Program-made: the position numbers and the translations under genes
In this document: positions 3,656 through 60,957 of the stretch, piece by piece
How positions within the stretch are numbered: position 1 is the first letter of the stretch
How the letters are laid out: each line of letters starts with the position of its first letter
Notes under the pieces: generated by a model
Told to the model about the DNA's origin: nothing
Databases searched by the model: none
What the model saw: only the letters and a program-made list of their open reading frames with translations
Assembly (NCBI GenBank): GCA_910574835.1
Contig: CAJTDE010000021.1
Span: forward strand, 1-64,000
DNA: 64,000 nt
Source of the DNA: Clostridia bacterium
GTDB taxonomy: Bacteria > Bacillota > Clostridia > Lachnospirales > Lachnospiraceae
Direction: 5' to 3'

Positions 3656-3815
3656 GGCCGGAAATTGATTTAGATAAGGTGTACTGGAAGGGGGATTACG
3701 GAACTGGGATCAGTAATACCCTTTGCAATGCACAAATCAATTTGCAGACACATGGCCTTGTGGCTGGAAATTGATTTAGGTAAAGTGTATTGCAAAGGGG
3801 ATTACGGAACTGGAA
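3656..3815 (+). repeat. Structured repeat element, copy A (hairpin with conserved loop and bulge)
   Basis: Two 54-base direct repeats (3656-3709 and 3762-3815, 47/54 identical by my count) flank the left arm of a long hairpin. Outer stem: 3719-3733 with 3785-3799 (15 pairs, one G-T). Inner stem: 3734-3743 with 3768-3777 (10 pairs). Bulge AGGTAAA is at 3778-3784. The loop 3744-3767 has the form CAGACACA-N7-GTGGCTGG. CGGAACTGG occurs at 3699 and 3805, 106 bases apart. A second copy with the same architecture and different arms lies on the minus strand at 60815-60957. Both end at the ribosome-binding site of the next gene. Confidence 0.85.
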
Positions 3816-3827
3816 TAGGAGATTACG

Positions 3828-5690
3828 ATGAGAAAATTAGCTTTAGACGACAGCATTTTATTAAAAATAGAAAAGCCTGCGCGGTATATCGGAAATGAAA
3901 TCAATGCAGTCTACAAGGATAAGTCCAAGACGGATATCCGCTTTTGCATGTGCTTTCCGGATCTTTATGAGATCGGCATGTCCCATCTTGGGATACAAAT
4001 TCTCTATGATATGTTCAACCAAAGAGAAGATGTATGGTGCGAGCGCGTCTATTCTCCCTGGGTGGATCTGGACGGAATATTGAGAGAGAAAAAGCTTCCG
4101 CTCTTTGCTCTGGAGTCTCAAGACCCTGTTAAAGACTTTGATTTTCTGGGAATCACGCTCCAATATGAGATGTGCTATACGAATGTGCTGCAGATTCTGG
4201 ATTTGAGCCGGATTCCCCTTCGGGCCGCCGACAGAGGTCAAAAAGATCCCATTGTGATTGGAGGCGGCCCCTGTGCCTGCAATCCGGAGCCATTGGCAGA
4301 TTTCTTTGACCTTTTCTACATTGGAGAGGGAGAGACTTCTTATGATGCGCTCTTAGATCTCTATAAAAATCATAAAAAATCGGGGACAAGCAGGGAGGAT
4401 TTCCTTCTTGCCGCTTCCGGCATTCCGGGCATATACGTGCCCTCCCTTTATAAAGTGACGTATCATCCCGACGGCACCGTTGCCGCCATGAAGCCGGCAA
4501 AGCCGCAGGCGCCGGAAAAGGTACGGCGTCAGGCGGTGTCGGATCTGACGTCTGCCGTTTATCCGAAGAAGCCCCTGGTTCCTTTTATCAAGGTAACTCA
4601 GGACCGCGTTGTTCTGGAGATTCAAAGAGGATGTATCCGCGGCTGCCGGTTCTGTCAGGCGGGAATGATGTACCGTCCCACAAGAGAGCGGGATCTGAAA
4701 ATGCTGGAGGAATCCGCCCACAATATGCTGGAATCCACCGGACACGAGGAGATCTCCTTAAGCTCCCTTAGCTCCAGCGATTACTCAAAGCTCCCGGAGC
4801 TGGTAACTTATCTCATGGAGCATTTCCGCGGGCAGGGAGTTAACATTTCCCTTCCCTCCCTGCGAATCGACGCTTTTTCTCTGGATGTAATGAGCAAAAT
4901 CCAGGATGTCCGAAAAAGCAGCATTACCTTTGCGCCGGAGGCCGGCTCTCAGCGGCTTCGCGATGTAATCAATAAGGGATTGACAGAGGAAGTTATCCTT
5001 GAGGGAGCCGGAACGGCTTTTGACGGCGGATGGAACAAGGTCAAGCTTTATTTTATGCTGGGCCTGCCTACGGAGACAGAAGAAGATCAAAAAGAAATTG
5101 CGCATCTGGCTGAAAAAATCGCAAAGCGCTATTACGAGATTCCCAAGGAGCGGCGCTGCGGCAAATGTCAGATTACCATCAGTACTTCCTTTTTTGTACC
5201 GAAGCCCTTCACCCCCTTCCAGTGGGCAAGGATGTGTACGCGGGAAGAATTTTTGGAACGGGCCTATACCGTCAATATGGAGGTCAAGGCTCAGCTAAAC
5301 CGCAAAAGCATGAAATACAACTGGCATGAAGCAGATGTAACGGTGCTGGAGGGCGTATTTGCAAGAGGAGACCGAAGGCTTTCTTCCTTCCTTCTTAGGG
5401 CCTATGAGAAGGGATGCCTCTTTGATTCCTGGACGGAAACCTTTCAGGGAGAGCTTTGGATGGAGGCTGCGGCGGAGACAGAGACGGATCTGATGTTTTA
5501 TACCACAAGAAACAGGGAGAAGGATGAGCTTTTCCCCTGGGATTTTATCGATATCGGCGTTACTAAGGGCTTTTTATATCGGGAGTGGGAGCGCGCTCTG
5601 AATGAGACGGTTACTCCCAACTGCCGTCAGCAGTGTCAGGGCTGCGGGGCGGGGCGTTATGAAAGCGGTATCTGCGTGGAAAGCCGTTAA
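3828..5690 (+). CDS. B12-binding-domain radical SAM protein, TIGR03960 family
   Basis: 620 aa. The N-terminal part resembles the B12-binding-type fold of the family (FPDLYEIGMSHLGIQILYD; GGGPCACNPEP). The radical-SAM cluster is C269-IRG-C273-RF-C276, followed by QAGMMYRP. The C-terminus has an additional Cys-rich end (CRQQCQGCG). It probably performs a radical SAM reaction linked to RNA or ribosome modification, but the substrate is not established. The next gene is its usual DUF2344 partner, and RNase G and rplU follow, the standard Clostridial order. AGGAG lies 7 bases before the start, directly after repeat copy A, which may form part of its 5' leader. Confidence 0.85.
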   Translation: MRKLALDDSILLKIEKPARYIGNEINAVYKDKSKTDIRFCMCFPDLYEIGMSHLGIQILYDMFNQREDVWCERVYSPWVDLDGILREKKLPLFALESQDPVKDFDFLGITLQYEMCYTNVLQILDLSRIPLRAADRGQKDPIVIGGGPCACNPEPLADFFDLFYIGEGETSYDALLDLYKNHKKSGTSREDFLLAASGIPGIYVPSLYKVTYHPDGTVAAMKPAKPQAPEKVRRQAVSDLTSAVYPKKPLVPFIKVTQDRVVLEIQRGCIRGCRFCQAGMMYRPTRERDLKMLEESAHNMLESTGHEEISLSSLSSSDYSKLPELVTYLMEHFRGQGVNISLPSLRIDAFSLDVMSKIQDVRKSSITFAPEAGSQRLRDVINKGLTEEVILEGAGTAFDGGWNKVKLYFMLGLPTETEEDQKEIAHLAEKIAKRYYEIPKERRCGKCQITISTSFFVPKPFTPFQWARMCTREEFLERAYTVNMEVKAQLNRKSMKYNWHEADVTVLEGVFARGDRRLSSFLLRAYEKGCLFDSWTETFQGELWMEAAAETETDLMFYTTRNREKDELFPWDFIDIGVTKGFLYREWERALNETVTPNCRQQCQGCGAGRYESGICVESR

Positions 5691-7733: not shown

Positions 7734-7937
7734 TACAATTACCGAACAAAAAAGTCCGGCTAAGAAATGTCAAGTATTTATTAAAAAAAATTCTGCCGGA
7801 CGGTAAAGCTGAAAAGGCGCACGAGAGGAACTTTTATGAGTGCTTTTTCGAATAAAAGTTTTTCTCACTATCGGTGTGTCGAAGCAGCTTTACCCTTTAG
7901 TGCTGTCGCGCAGCGACTTAAAATAGGAGGATGCGAC

Positions 7938-8626: not shown

Positions 8627-8655
8627 TTGACATTTTACCCCATATATGCTATCCT
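8627..8655 (+). promoter_or_regulatory. Promoter of the rplU-prp-rpmA operon
   Basis: TTGACA (8627-8632), a 17-base spacer and TATCCT (8650-8655). It lies about 95 bases upstream of rplU and just before the L21 leader. Confidence 0.75.
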
Positions 8656-8661
8656 GTTACG

Positions 8662-8745
8662 GATGCCGCACAGTGGGGTAAAAGTATGTACTTTTTTATA
8701 AAAGCAGTACATCACCGAAGCTGGCGAGTAATGATAATAGGAGGT
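8662..8745 (+). ncRNA. Ribosomal protein L21 leader (candidate autoregulatory RNA)
   Basis: The 5' leader between the promoter and the rplU ribosome-binding site contains a 7-bp hairpin, ATGTACT (8686-8692) with AGTACAT, flanked by CCGCACAGTGGGG and CACCGAAGCTGG. This matches in position and general shape the L21 leaders of Firmicutes, where r-protein binding represses the operon. Identification rests on position and the visible stem only; a covariance-model search would settle it. Confidence 0.5.
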
Positions 8746-17927: not shown

Positions 17928-17944
17928 AAAAAAGTACAATTCCA

Positions 17945-18135
17945 TATAAGGTATTAAGTGCCTGTCAGATTCAAAATTTTGGCAGGAAGAGGGAATTAGG
18001 TGCAAGTCCTAAGCGATCCGGTCACTGTAAGCAGGGAATATTTCCTAACGAATCCATTGTACAACTTTTTGTATGAGAAGGAAAGGAAAATATGCAGATC
18101 TGTAAGCCAGGAAACCTGCTTAATACTTGAGGAGA
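17945..18135 (+). ncRNA. Cobalamin riboswitch
   Basis: Conserved B12-element motifs in order: GAGGGAATTAGGTGCAAGTC, then CCGGTCACTGTAAGC, then GTAAGCCAGGAAACCTGCTT. Spacing and order match the adenosylcobalamin riboswitch core. A terminator (18164-18220) follows, so control is probably by transcription attenuation. No vitamin B12 transport or synthesis gene follows within the next 500 bases. Confidence 0.88.
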
Positions 18136-18163
18136 GACTTCCGAAGAAAGTTCAGTTCCTGTC

Positions 18164-59863: not shown

Positions 59864-60322
59864 TTACAATCTTTCCACCACTCCCCGAATTGCCTCCGAA
59901 GCCGCCCGCGCCCTCTTATGATCCATTCCCCCCACCGTAACGCCTGCCACCAGCTCATCCTTAACGGCAAGCCCCGGAAAATAAAAATCACAAAGGCTTT
60001 TATCGCTGCTCACATTCACCGGAATCCGCTTCCCCCGGCACTCCGCGGCTATTTGTGCATTTACCTCCTTATCACTCACTGCCGCCAAAACCAGACAGAC
60101 GTCCTCCTTAATCTCTCCCGGATGATAAACAGTCCTTCTAAATAAAATCCTGCCTTCCTTTGCCAGCTTTTCCACTTCCGGCAAAGCCCTTGGCGCAATC
60201 ACCGTAAGCTCACAGCCAAATTCCAAAAGAGCCAAAATTCTACGGAACCCGATAACACCGGCCCCGTAGACAAGAATCTTCTTTCCTTCCAGGTTCACAA
60301 ACAGGGGAAAATACCGGCTCAT
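59864..60322 (-). CDS. Precorrin-2 dehydrogenase (sirohaem synthase N-terminal type)
   Basis: 152 aa. MSRYFPLFVNLEGKKILVYGAGVIGFRRILALLEFG is the NAD-binding start of CysG-N/Met8p/SirC proteins; SSDKSLCDFYFPGLAV and TVGGMDHKRARAASEAIR continue it. Oxidises precorrin-2 to sirohydrochlorin. The usual GGG-A-x-R-K reads GAGVIGFRR, a minor variant. Its ATG overlaps the ybaK-like stop. No other haem or B12 genes adjoin it. Confidence 0.88.
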   Translation of the reverse strand: MSRYFPLFVNLEGKKILVYGAGVIGFRRILALLEFGCELTVIAPRALPEVEKLAKEGRILFRRTVYHPGEIKEDVCLVLAAVSDKEVNAQIAAECRGKRIPVNVSSDKSLCDFYFPGLAVKDELVAGVTVGGMDHKRARAASEAIRGVVERL

Positions 60323-60801
60323 GCCTCCTGCTCCTGCCAGCCCTTGCACACATCAATCCATTCCTTTGCGCGGGAATACCGCATAAGCTCCTCCATATTA
60401 AGCTCGATGGCGCTGTTGGAGCTTCCCGCCGCAGGAAACACAGTCTCAAACCTTTTCATGGATTCATCCAGGTAAACGCTCACCGTATCCGGAATCCCAA
60501 AGGGGCATACGCCGCCCACGGCATGGCCAATCTTATCCGCCACCTCCTCCTGGGACAGCATAACGGCCTTCTTTCCGAATTTATCTTTGTATTTCCGGTT
60601 GTCAATCTTGGCGTCTCCGGCAGCCACAATAAGAATCGGGGCCTCGCCTACCTTAAAGGACAGGGTTTTTGCAATCCGCGCCGGAATACAGCCCACAGCC
60701 TGAGCCGCCAGTTCCACCGTAGCGCTGGAAACCGGAAATTCCAGAATCCGTTCCTCCATTCCATAGGAGGAAAAATACCTGCGTACAATCTCTATCGACA
60801 T
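60319..60801 (-). CDS. YbaK/EbsC-family aminoacyl-tRNA deacylase
   Basis: 160 aa. Editing-domain pattern: AAQAVGCIPARIAKTLSFKV (invariant Lys), AAGDAKIDNRKYKDKFG, GHAVGGVCPFGIP. Trans-editing proteins of this family clear mischarged prolyl- or cysteinyl-tRNA. AAAGGAG precedes the ATG and repeat copy B lies directly upstream. Confidence 0.9.
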   Translation of the reverse strand: MSIEIVRRYFSSYGMEERILEFPVSSATVELAAQAVGCIPARIAKTLSFKVGEAPILIVAAGDAKIDNRKYKDKFGKKAVMLSQEEVADKIGHAVGGVCPFGIPDTVSVYLDESMKRFETVFPAAGSSNSAIELNMEELMRYSRAKEWIDVCKGWQEQEA

Positions 60802-60814
60802 AATAAAAACTCCT

Positions 60815-60957
60815 TTATTCCAGTTCCGCTGTCCCTTGTACAGTACCCTTTAACTAGAACGATTTCCAGCCACTAACTGCTGTGTCTGTAAATCGTTCTG
60901 GCACTGTACAAGGGAAAGCTGTTTTCCAGTTCCGCTGGCACTGTACAAGAGGCAGCC
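60815..60957 (-). repeat. Structured repeat element, copy B
   Basis: Minus-strand hairpin: outer arm 60914-60900 with 60847-60833 (15 pairs, one G-T), inner arm 60899-60890 with 60865-60856 (10 pairs), bulge AGTTAAA 60855-60849, loop 60889-60866 of the form CAGACACA-N7-GTGGCTGG (24 bases, as in copy A). CGGAACTGG occurs at 60934-60926 and 60828-60820, again 106 apart. Ends at CTGGAATA before the ribosome-binding site of the YbaK gene. Confidence 0.85.

Follow-up and report, generated by a model that had tools for sequence, protein, structure and literature searches.

The hairpin element E1, of which the window (the whole 64,000-nucleotide stretch analysed) carries two copies, is on sequence grounds best read as a dispersed, lineage-restricted element which appears to have spread through the genome. 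The reading we favor, at a probability of roughly 55%, is that E1 is a spreading intercistronic cassette of hairpin plus Shine-Dalgarno (SD) sequence which would give the gene behind it independent translation; transcription of the element, loss of translational coupling and transposition are the parts of this reading that we infer.

E1 copies in the window

The window features on which the analysis was based are as follows (R1 is the covariance model described below).

3711..3821 (+): E1 copy A, unit running from CAG (3711) through CGGAACTGG (3805-3813) to the SD AGGAG (3817-3821); R1 score 120.7 bits
3719-3733, 3734-3743 and 3745-3767 (+): outer left arm, inner left arm and loop of copy A
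3768-3777, 3778-3784 and 3785-3799 (+): inner right arm, bulge and outer right arm of copy A
3656..3709 (+): 5'-truncated E1 remnant upstream of A, directly 3' of the stop of the upstream ORF (ends 3654)
3828..5690 (+): gene 3' of A, TIGR03960 family B12-binding radical SAM protein; 1038 bits, cut-off 462
60810..60921 (-): E1 copy B, unit running from CAG (60921) through CGGAACTGG (60828-60820) to the SD AAAGGAG (60816-60810), loop 60888-60866; R1 score 112.4 bits
60926..60950 (-): duplication upstream of B, made up of left-arm-like CTTGTACAGTGCCAG and then CGGAACTGG
60319..60801 (-): gene 3' of B, aminoacyl-tRNA editing domain, YbaK-like, under the YbaK equivalog cut-off
7754..7930 (+): E2, a second hairpin family, ending in AATAGGAGG (7922-7930), with an ATG at 7938

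Copies A and B each form a 10-pair inner stem and a 15-pair outer stem. An earlier note on this DNA had given 25 pairs per copy with about 11 changed on both sides, and our recount agreed: 14 pairs are identical between A and B, 11 are altered on both sides with pairing kept and none is altered on one side. The stem lengths and the 106-base spacing of the flanking CGGAACTGG are, as had been stated, the same in both copies, and CGGAACTGG occurs four times in the window, two per locus, against 0.47 expected. The 7-nt bulge AGGTAAA was found again in A, whereas B, to which the same bulge length had been ascribed, has one of 8 nt (AGTTAAAG) and forms only 15 pairs when forced to 7 nt. Fold z-scores were -5.7 for A and -6.9 for B. 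The degenerate second right arm described upstream of A proved to be part of an E1 unit, 61 nt with 87% identity to the right side of A, and the assignment of the adjoining gene to TIGR03960 was borne out by its score.

Copy number and distribution

The E1 unit is approximately 106 nt long. Covariance model R1 was built from 60 copies (set A1) chosen by exact loop, so the conservation of the loop within A1 is a product of how the copies were selected. These were taken from 62 candidates with omission of L025 (left arm misfit) and one of the two L101 copies; L016 and L088, which carry an insertion in the bulge, were outside the 62. The search of genome and relatives with such a model, which the earlier note had proposed, gave 145 matches at E<=0.01 in the source genome (5.0 Mb) when the best 150 candidates were scored, a count near the ceiling of the method, and among these 145 are at least two antisense shadows and two more that are weak. 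In all, about 140 copies were found in this genome, far beyond the two first noted, and 8 of 12 same-genus relatives were also positive, with 149, 145, 144, 122, 104, 49, 4 and 1 matches and none in the other four. For alignment, the best 150 of 186 R1 matches in the source genome's own loci were taken and 17 overlapping and two duplicate matches were dropped, leaving 131 copies; this set still holds one antisense shadow (L185 15625-15720), and its loci cover most of the 145 genome matches.

Across the family, R1 matched 7 of 250 genomes (249 genera), from six genera, under stricter filters and with few candidates scored per genome. The source genome was the sole match in 295 genomes of the order, and 8 genomes from other families gave none. 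The exact loop, present 14 times in the source genome, was found in that genome only when 200 family genomes were searched; with pairing arms required, the matches listed included many copies in gut Clostridia contigs, those of strain 1XD21-13 (L032, L044, L078) among them. Strict conservation of the loop, as had been claimed from A and B, proved to be an artefact of the two-copy sample, exact CAGACACA-N7-GTGGCTGG being present in just 14 of the 131 aligned copies. The exact loop was rejected as a definition of the family for being too narrow, and many chance matches among those listed were removed by demanding pairing arms. Two loop matches in viral contigs, with just 3/10 and 4/10 inner pairs, were taken as chance.

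Comparison with Rfam, also proposed in the earlier note, gave no E1 match: at the gathering score, Rfam 15 returned nothing but a cobalamin riboswitch for the whole window, and at E<=1 the four matches obtained from eight E1/E2 loci were weak, unrelated and below cut-off, and they covered neither E1 nor E2. We found no description of E1 in the literature searched, including the available parts of PMC2229807, PMC10969869, PMC2864571 and PMC8040213; an unnamed earlier listing in supplementary tables (e.g. the candidate list of PMC8040213) is possible.

Fold and covariation

The E1 layout consists of an outer stem, a bulge of approximately 7 nt on the 3' side, an inner stem and an apical hairpin. 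The loop is itself this small hairpin, which covaries and contains a purine-purine mismatch in 124 of the 131 copies (A.G 55, G.A 52, G.G 9, A.A 8). RNAalifold of 60 sequences returned a single long hairpin of 30 pairs, 19 of them with double changes. In the set from other genera (A4; 33 rows, 32 distinct) the covariation score was 0.488, compared with 0.193 +/- 0.011 for shuffled alignments and at most 0.123 when partners were slid, in an alignment fitted to the model, which favours this score; 26 of the 30 pairs vary on both sides. One antisense-shadow row of A4 (L344 +) was counted in the covariation score and left out of the SD/start and G.U/A.C counts. This covariation, in copies that were not used for the model, supports the earlier claim of selection for a folded RNA or single-stranded DNA (ssDNA) hairpin.

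The 131 copies have a median pairwise identity of 0.68 (2000 sampled pairs). When their stem positions were read on the sense strand, 268 cells were G.U and 57 were A.C, the copies being related and the cells non-independent. With the pairs in which G.U is common excluded, the counts were 134 and 51, and G.U was favoured at 23 of 27 informative pairs; the other genera gave 41 G.U and 9 A.C (sign test p 0.08). Because equal constraint on the two strands would give equal G.U and A.C, the excess marks the sense strand as the one under pairing constraint. The G.U excess fits a folded RNA, and a strand-specific ssDNA hairpin would fit it too.

Position before the Shine-Dalgarno and start codon

The distance from hairpin to SD is nearly fixed, and the SD consensus is CGGAACTGGAATAGGAG. 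Among the 106 copies of the source genome which end an array, 96 were followed by an SD and start codon, in 75 of these cases 15-20 nt past CGGAACT. With a stricter rule 92 of 106 lay directly before an SD and start, compared with 1/106 on the opposite strand and about 15/106 at random positions; the ORF rules behind these calls are mechanical. Of the ten array-ending copies with no called start, four lead into another E1, three into E2 and one is a shadow, while two have a GGAG lacking an ORF which meets the rule. At the other end, the distance from the stop of a co-directional ORF to the first unit is within 120 bp for 75 of 104 arrays, with a median of 56 bp, both as raw values. All aligned copies, one antisense shadow excepted, share the orientation of the gene or element that follows them. 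The placement of copy A in the 5' leader of one gene, as it had first been described, must give way to a dispersed element with its own SD at stop/start junctions. In other genera the AAACAG 5' end and the CGGAACT..AATAGGAG 3' end are mostly kept while the arms differ; 24 of 32 copies there meet the SD-and-start rule and several of the rest run into another unit.

No common function was found among the 19 distinct downstream proteins examined (69 eligible), which include RecA, cysteine-tRNA ligase, an L15-type domain, NagB, aldolases, an Rnf subunit and ABC ATPases, several proteins being matchless. These 19 proteins do not show the association with one pathway that a riboswitch-like leader would have. 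Sequestration of the SD by the E1 fold was also rejected, since the SD has a middling unpaired probability of 0.56 which is not distinctive. Small ORFs that end close to the start codon were present in 57 of 92 copies compared with 32 in shuffles, and this excess leaves room for a coupled-ORF mechanism. The counts by reading frame are 28, 25 and 22 of the 92 copies, with no one frame kept, and the ATG in the loop is found in 65/92 with scattered ends.

Empty, filled and remnant junctions in relatives

Orthologous junctions were compared among relatives. At locus B, 16 genomes were compared; a full E1 was found in G000, G206 and G221, two short remnants in G201 and a degenerate region in G204, and E1 was absent in the other 11, with a stop-start gap of 1 nt in G211 and G205 and of 3 nt in G202 and G208. 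At the copy A locus E1 was present in G000 alone of 16 genomes. The L226 junction, compared in 8 genomes, contains E1 in G000 and G206 and, with different arms, in G221 and G204; G201 holds just the tail TATTACGGAACTGGAAT before AAGAGG, and G211, G205 and G203 have nothing clear. At the L144 junction, also compared in 8 genomes, the gap from stop to start is 2-3 nt in G203, G205 and G221, E1 is present in G206 and G211, and mixed states were found in G204 (tail plus E2), G201 (truncated E2 plus E1) and G000 (E1 plus E2). Because orthologous junctions occur empty, filled or as remnants, tight junctions appear to have been filled repeatedly. The filled junctions carry an SD and the empty state has no room for one. 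No constant target-site duplication was seen at four junctions read by eye, where the exact ends of E1 are uncertain.

Two further observations were made at these loci. In G201, locus B (L261) has two tandem mini-units CAGCTATAGCGGAACTGGAAAA that resemble E1 cut down to its base. A 44-nt inverted-repeat insertion flanked by CTAG on both sides lies within the bulge of two different E1 copies; it was seen in L259 at approximately 2180-2230 (locus B in G206) and also in L016 and L088, with short matches in L113 and L283.

Turnover and drift of units

Ahead of 68 of 104 arrays lies a fragment from the 3' end of the unit itself, mostly 16-20 nt, and 22 of the 104 contain two or three units. Truncation of 5' ends at random, of the kind left by target-primed reverse transcription, was rejected as the source of such pieces: E1 remnants cluster at 16-20 nt and E2 truncations recur at query position 49-50. 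These discrete boundaries are therefore better fitted by repeat recombination.

At 50 loci common to G000 and G206, stem divergence was 2.1% compared with 1.1% for coding sequence. One-sided changes in pairs comprised 30 which make or break a pair, 21 which keep it and three between unpaired states; two-sided changes comprised two clean compensations and three other doubles, with the locus B pair misaligned by an insertion. Since the stems diverge faster than coding sequence, this comparison says that settled E1 copies drift and are not strongly held. Two orthologous pairs of copies (L207 6633 and L330; L183 7261 and L328) differ far more than the genes that follow them, which are 97-99% identical; exchange with other E1 copies would give such a picture.

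Proposed mechanism and alternatives

In the proposed mechanism E1 would lodge at the boundary of two cistrons, after the stop codon of the first and before the start codon of the second. This position was seen at three comparable junctions, at which relatives separate the two codons by 1-3 nt or by a short native gap. The sense strand, if transcribed as we suppose, would fold within the polycistronic mRNA, and the hairpin would separate the terminating ribosome from the new start, with the SD behind it serving as the downstream gene's own initiation site. Insertion would thereby swap translational coupling for independent initiation, which may allow E1 to establish itself in operons that include housekeeping genes. 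Units would probably be gained and lost locally via the direct repeats GGATATTACGGAACTGGAA which flank each hairpin. RNA structure just past the stop codon correlates negatively with coupling, according to the available part of PMC12548453, and the like habit of E2 also speaks for this reading. The faster divergence of the stems, the middling unpaired probability of the SD and the excess of small ORFs near the start speak against it.

The main rival, which we consider unlikely, is that the E1 stem processes or stabilizes the operon mRNA and that the independent start is secondary. The intercistronic place, the 25-pair stem and the mean E1 unit MFE of -42 kcal/mol would all suit such a role, and available parts of the literature describe SRPS stem-loops in operon intergenic regions of C. 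cellulolyticum whose energy tracks transcript ratios (PMC4423207) and ERIC RNA which alters transcript stability in Yersinia (PMC2229807). However, the SRPS loops so described are chiefly at the 3' end of the upstream gene, while E1 keeps a fixed distance to the SD that follows it.

Slightly less likely still is that E1 is purely selfish DNA, in which an ssDNA transposition intermediate folds and the place next to the SD is simply where insertions survive. The high copy number varying among relatives, the empty sites, the tandem units and the drifting arms are all consistent with this, as is the G.U excess, which such a strand-specific ssDNA fold would match as well. Random insertion should, however, leave survivors in other orientations and places, whereas the aligned E1 copies are in sense, and the SD stays with the unit across genera. 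More doubtful again is a regulated leader, whose apical hairpin would be the binding site of a protein or small RNA governing initiation across a large regulon; the apical hairpin is conserved and covarying, has the purine-purine mismatch and lies at a fixed distance from the SD, but the 19 downstream proteins share no function and 4 of 12 same-genus genomes had no match, so the control would be dispensable. Palindromes can mutate when, during replication, one arm is templated by the other, which would give covariation without selection and would account for A and B differing by double changes alone, but this is highly improbable given the 54 one-sided and 2 clean double changes between G000 and G206 (one locus misaligned) and the asymmetry of G.U over A.C, which arm copying would not lead one to expect.

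Comparison with known elements

Mycobacterial interspersed repetitive units (MIRU) are by habit intercistronic, in sense and in tandem. The available part of PMC12548453 describes them as short, apparently mobile repeats which insert at the start codons of neighbouring genes with gene translation preserved, and which couple the gene to a small ORF at a -4 nt spacing. E1 resembles MIRU in its placement at stop/start junctions of co-directional genes, a comparison of habit and not of sequence; unlike MIRU with its coupled ORF, it brings a covarying hairpin and an SD and keeps no single frame. A MIRU-like coupled ORF in E1 was rejected in part only: no frame is kept, yet suitable ORFs are in excess (57/92 compared with 32).

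REP elements, which are short palindromes linked to a RAYT transposase, are much shorter than the E1 unit. E1 resembles MITEs of the ERIC/NEMIS type in being a short, non-coding inverted repeat of approximately 106 nt with a 30-pair consensus hairpin. As far as the available text of PMC2229807 goes, ERIC/IRU, Correia/NEMIS, RUP and CIR are of about 100-200 bp with stem-loop transcripts, ERIC and NEMIS affect neighbouring mRNA, and terminal repeats and target duplications are described for such MITE-like repeats. Unlike these, E1 sits at an SD, and no constant target duplication was seen at the four junctions read, where its ends are uncertain; the terms ribosome, Shine-Dalgarno and start codon are absent from the accessible portion of the MITE review PMC10969869. 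The SRPS of Clostridium cellulolyticum are, like E1, stem-loops between operon cistrons in Clostridia; unlike E1 they are, in the available sections of PMC4423207, neither described as a repeat family nor tied to an SD. The TAACTGA repeats of Beggiatoaceae number 169 sets in one genome, most of them no more than several nt upstream of a start codon, and as with E1 the downstream functions are patternless, according to the part of PMC4679880 available. These are heptamer direct repeats and, unlike E1, no hairpin family.

If the proposed cassette reading is true, a spreading RNA element would have reshaped the translation start of more than 100 genes in one bacterium, including recA, a gene for a tRNA ligase and one that encodes a ribosomal-protein domain. 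Its close relatives would offer natural pairs of coupled and uncoupled junctions for a direct test of the worth of coupling in operons, and E1 would be a mobile element shaped at the RNA level for tolerance at the start codon, a solution unlike that of MIRU.

E2 and other features of the window

E2 has the same architecture as E1, with an outer stem, an inner stem and a 7-nt bulge on the 3' side, followed by AATAGGAGG. The source genome contained 49 matching pieces, and 19 of the 20 E2 loci examined ended at an SD and start codon while the opposite-strand control gave 0. Among 15 E2 copies located in loci of the E1 analysis, 10 were followed by an SD and start (L036 and L212 by a loose call), four by E1 and one by E2. 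Tentatively, E1 and E2 may be two sequence-unlike families of one new class: mobile RNA-hairpin cassettes which would home to SDs or stop/start junctions of almost any gene (e.g. with the SD providing a short stretch of homology or a priming site), supply a hairpin and SD and rewire coupling over a large part of a genome.

At some junctions E1 and E2 nest in either order. Two other features were observed in the window.

8630-8744 (+): another hairpin, TTTTACCCCA / TGGGGTAAAA, upstream of a AATAGGAGG SD and ATG, with a weaker fold (z -2.2)
17939-18137 (+): cobalamin riboswitch, 100 bits
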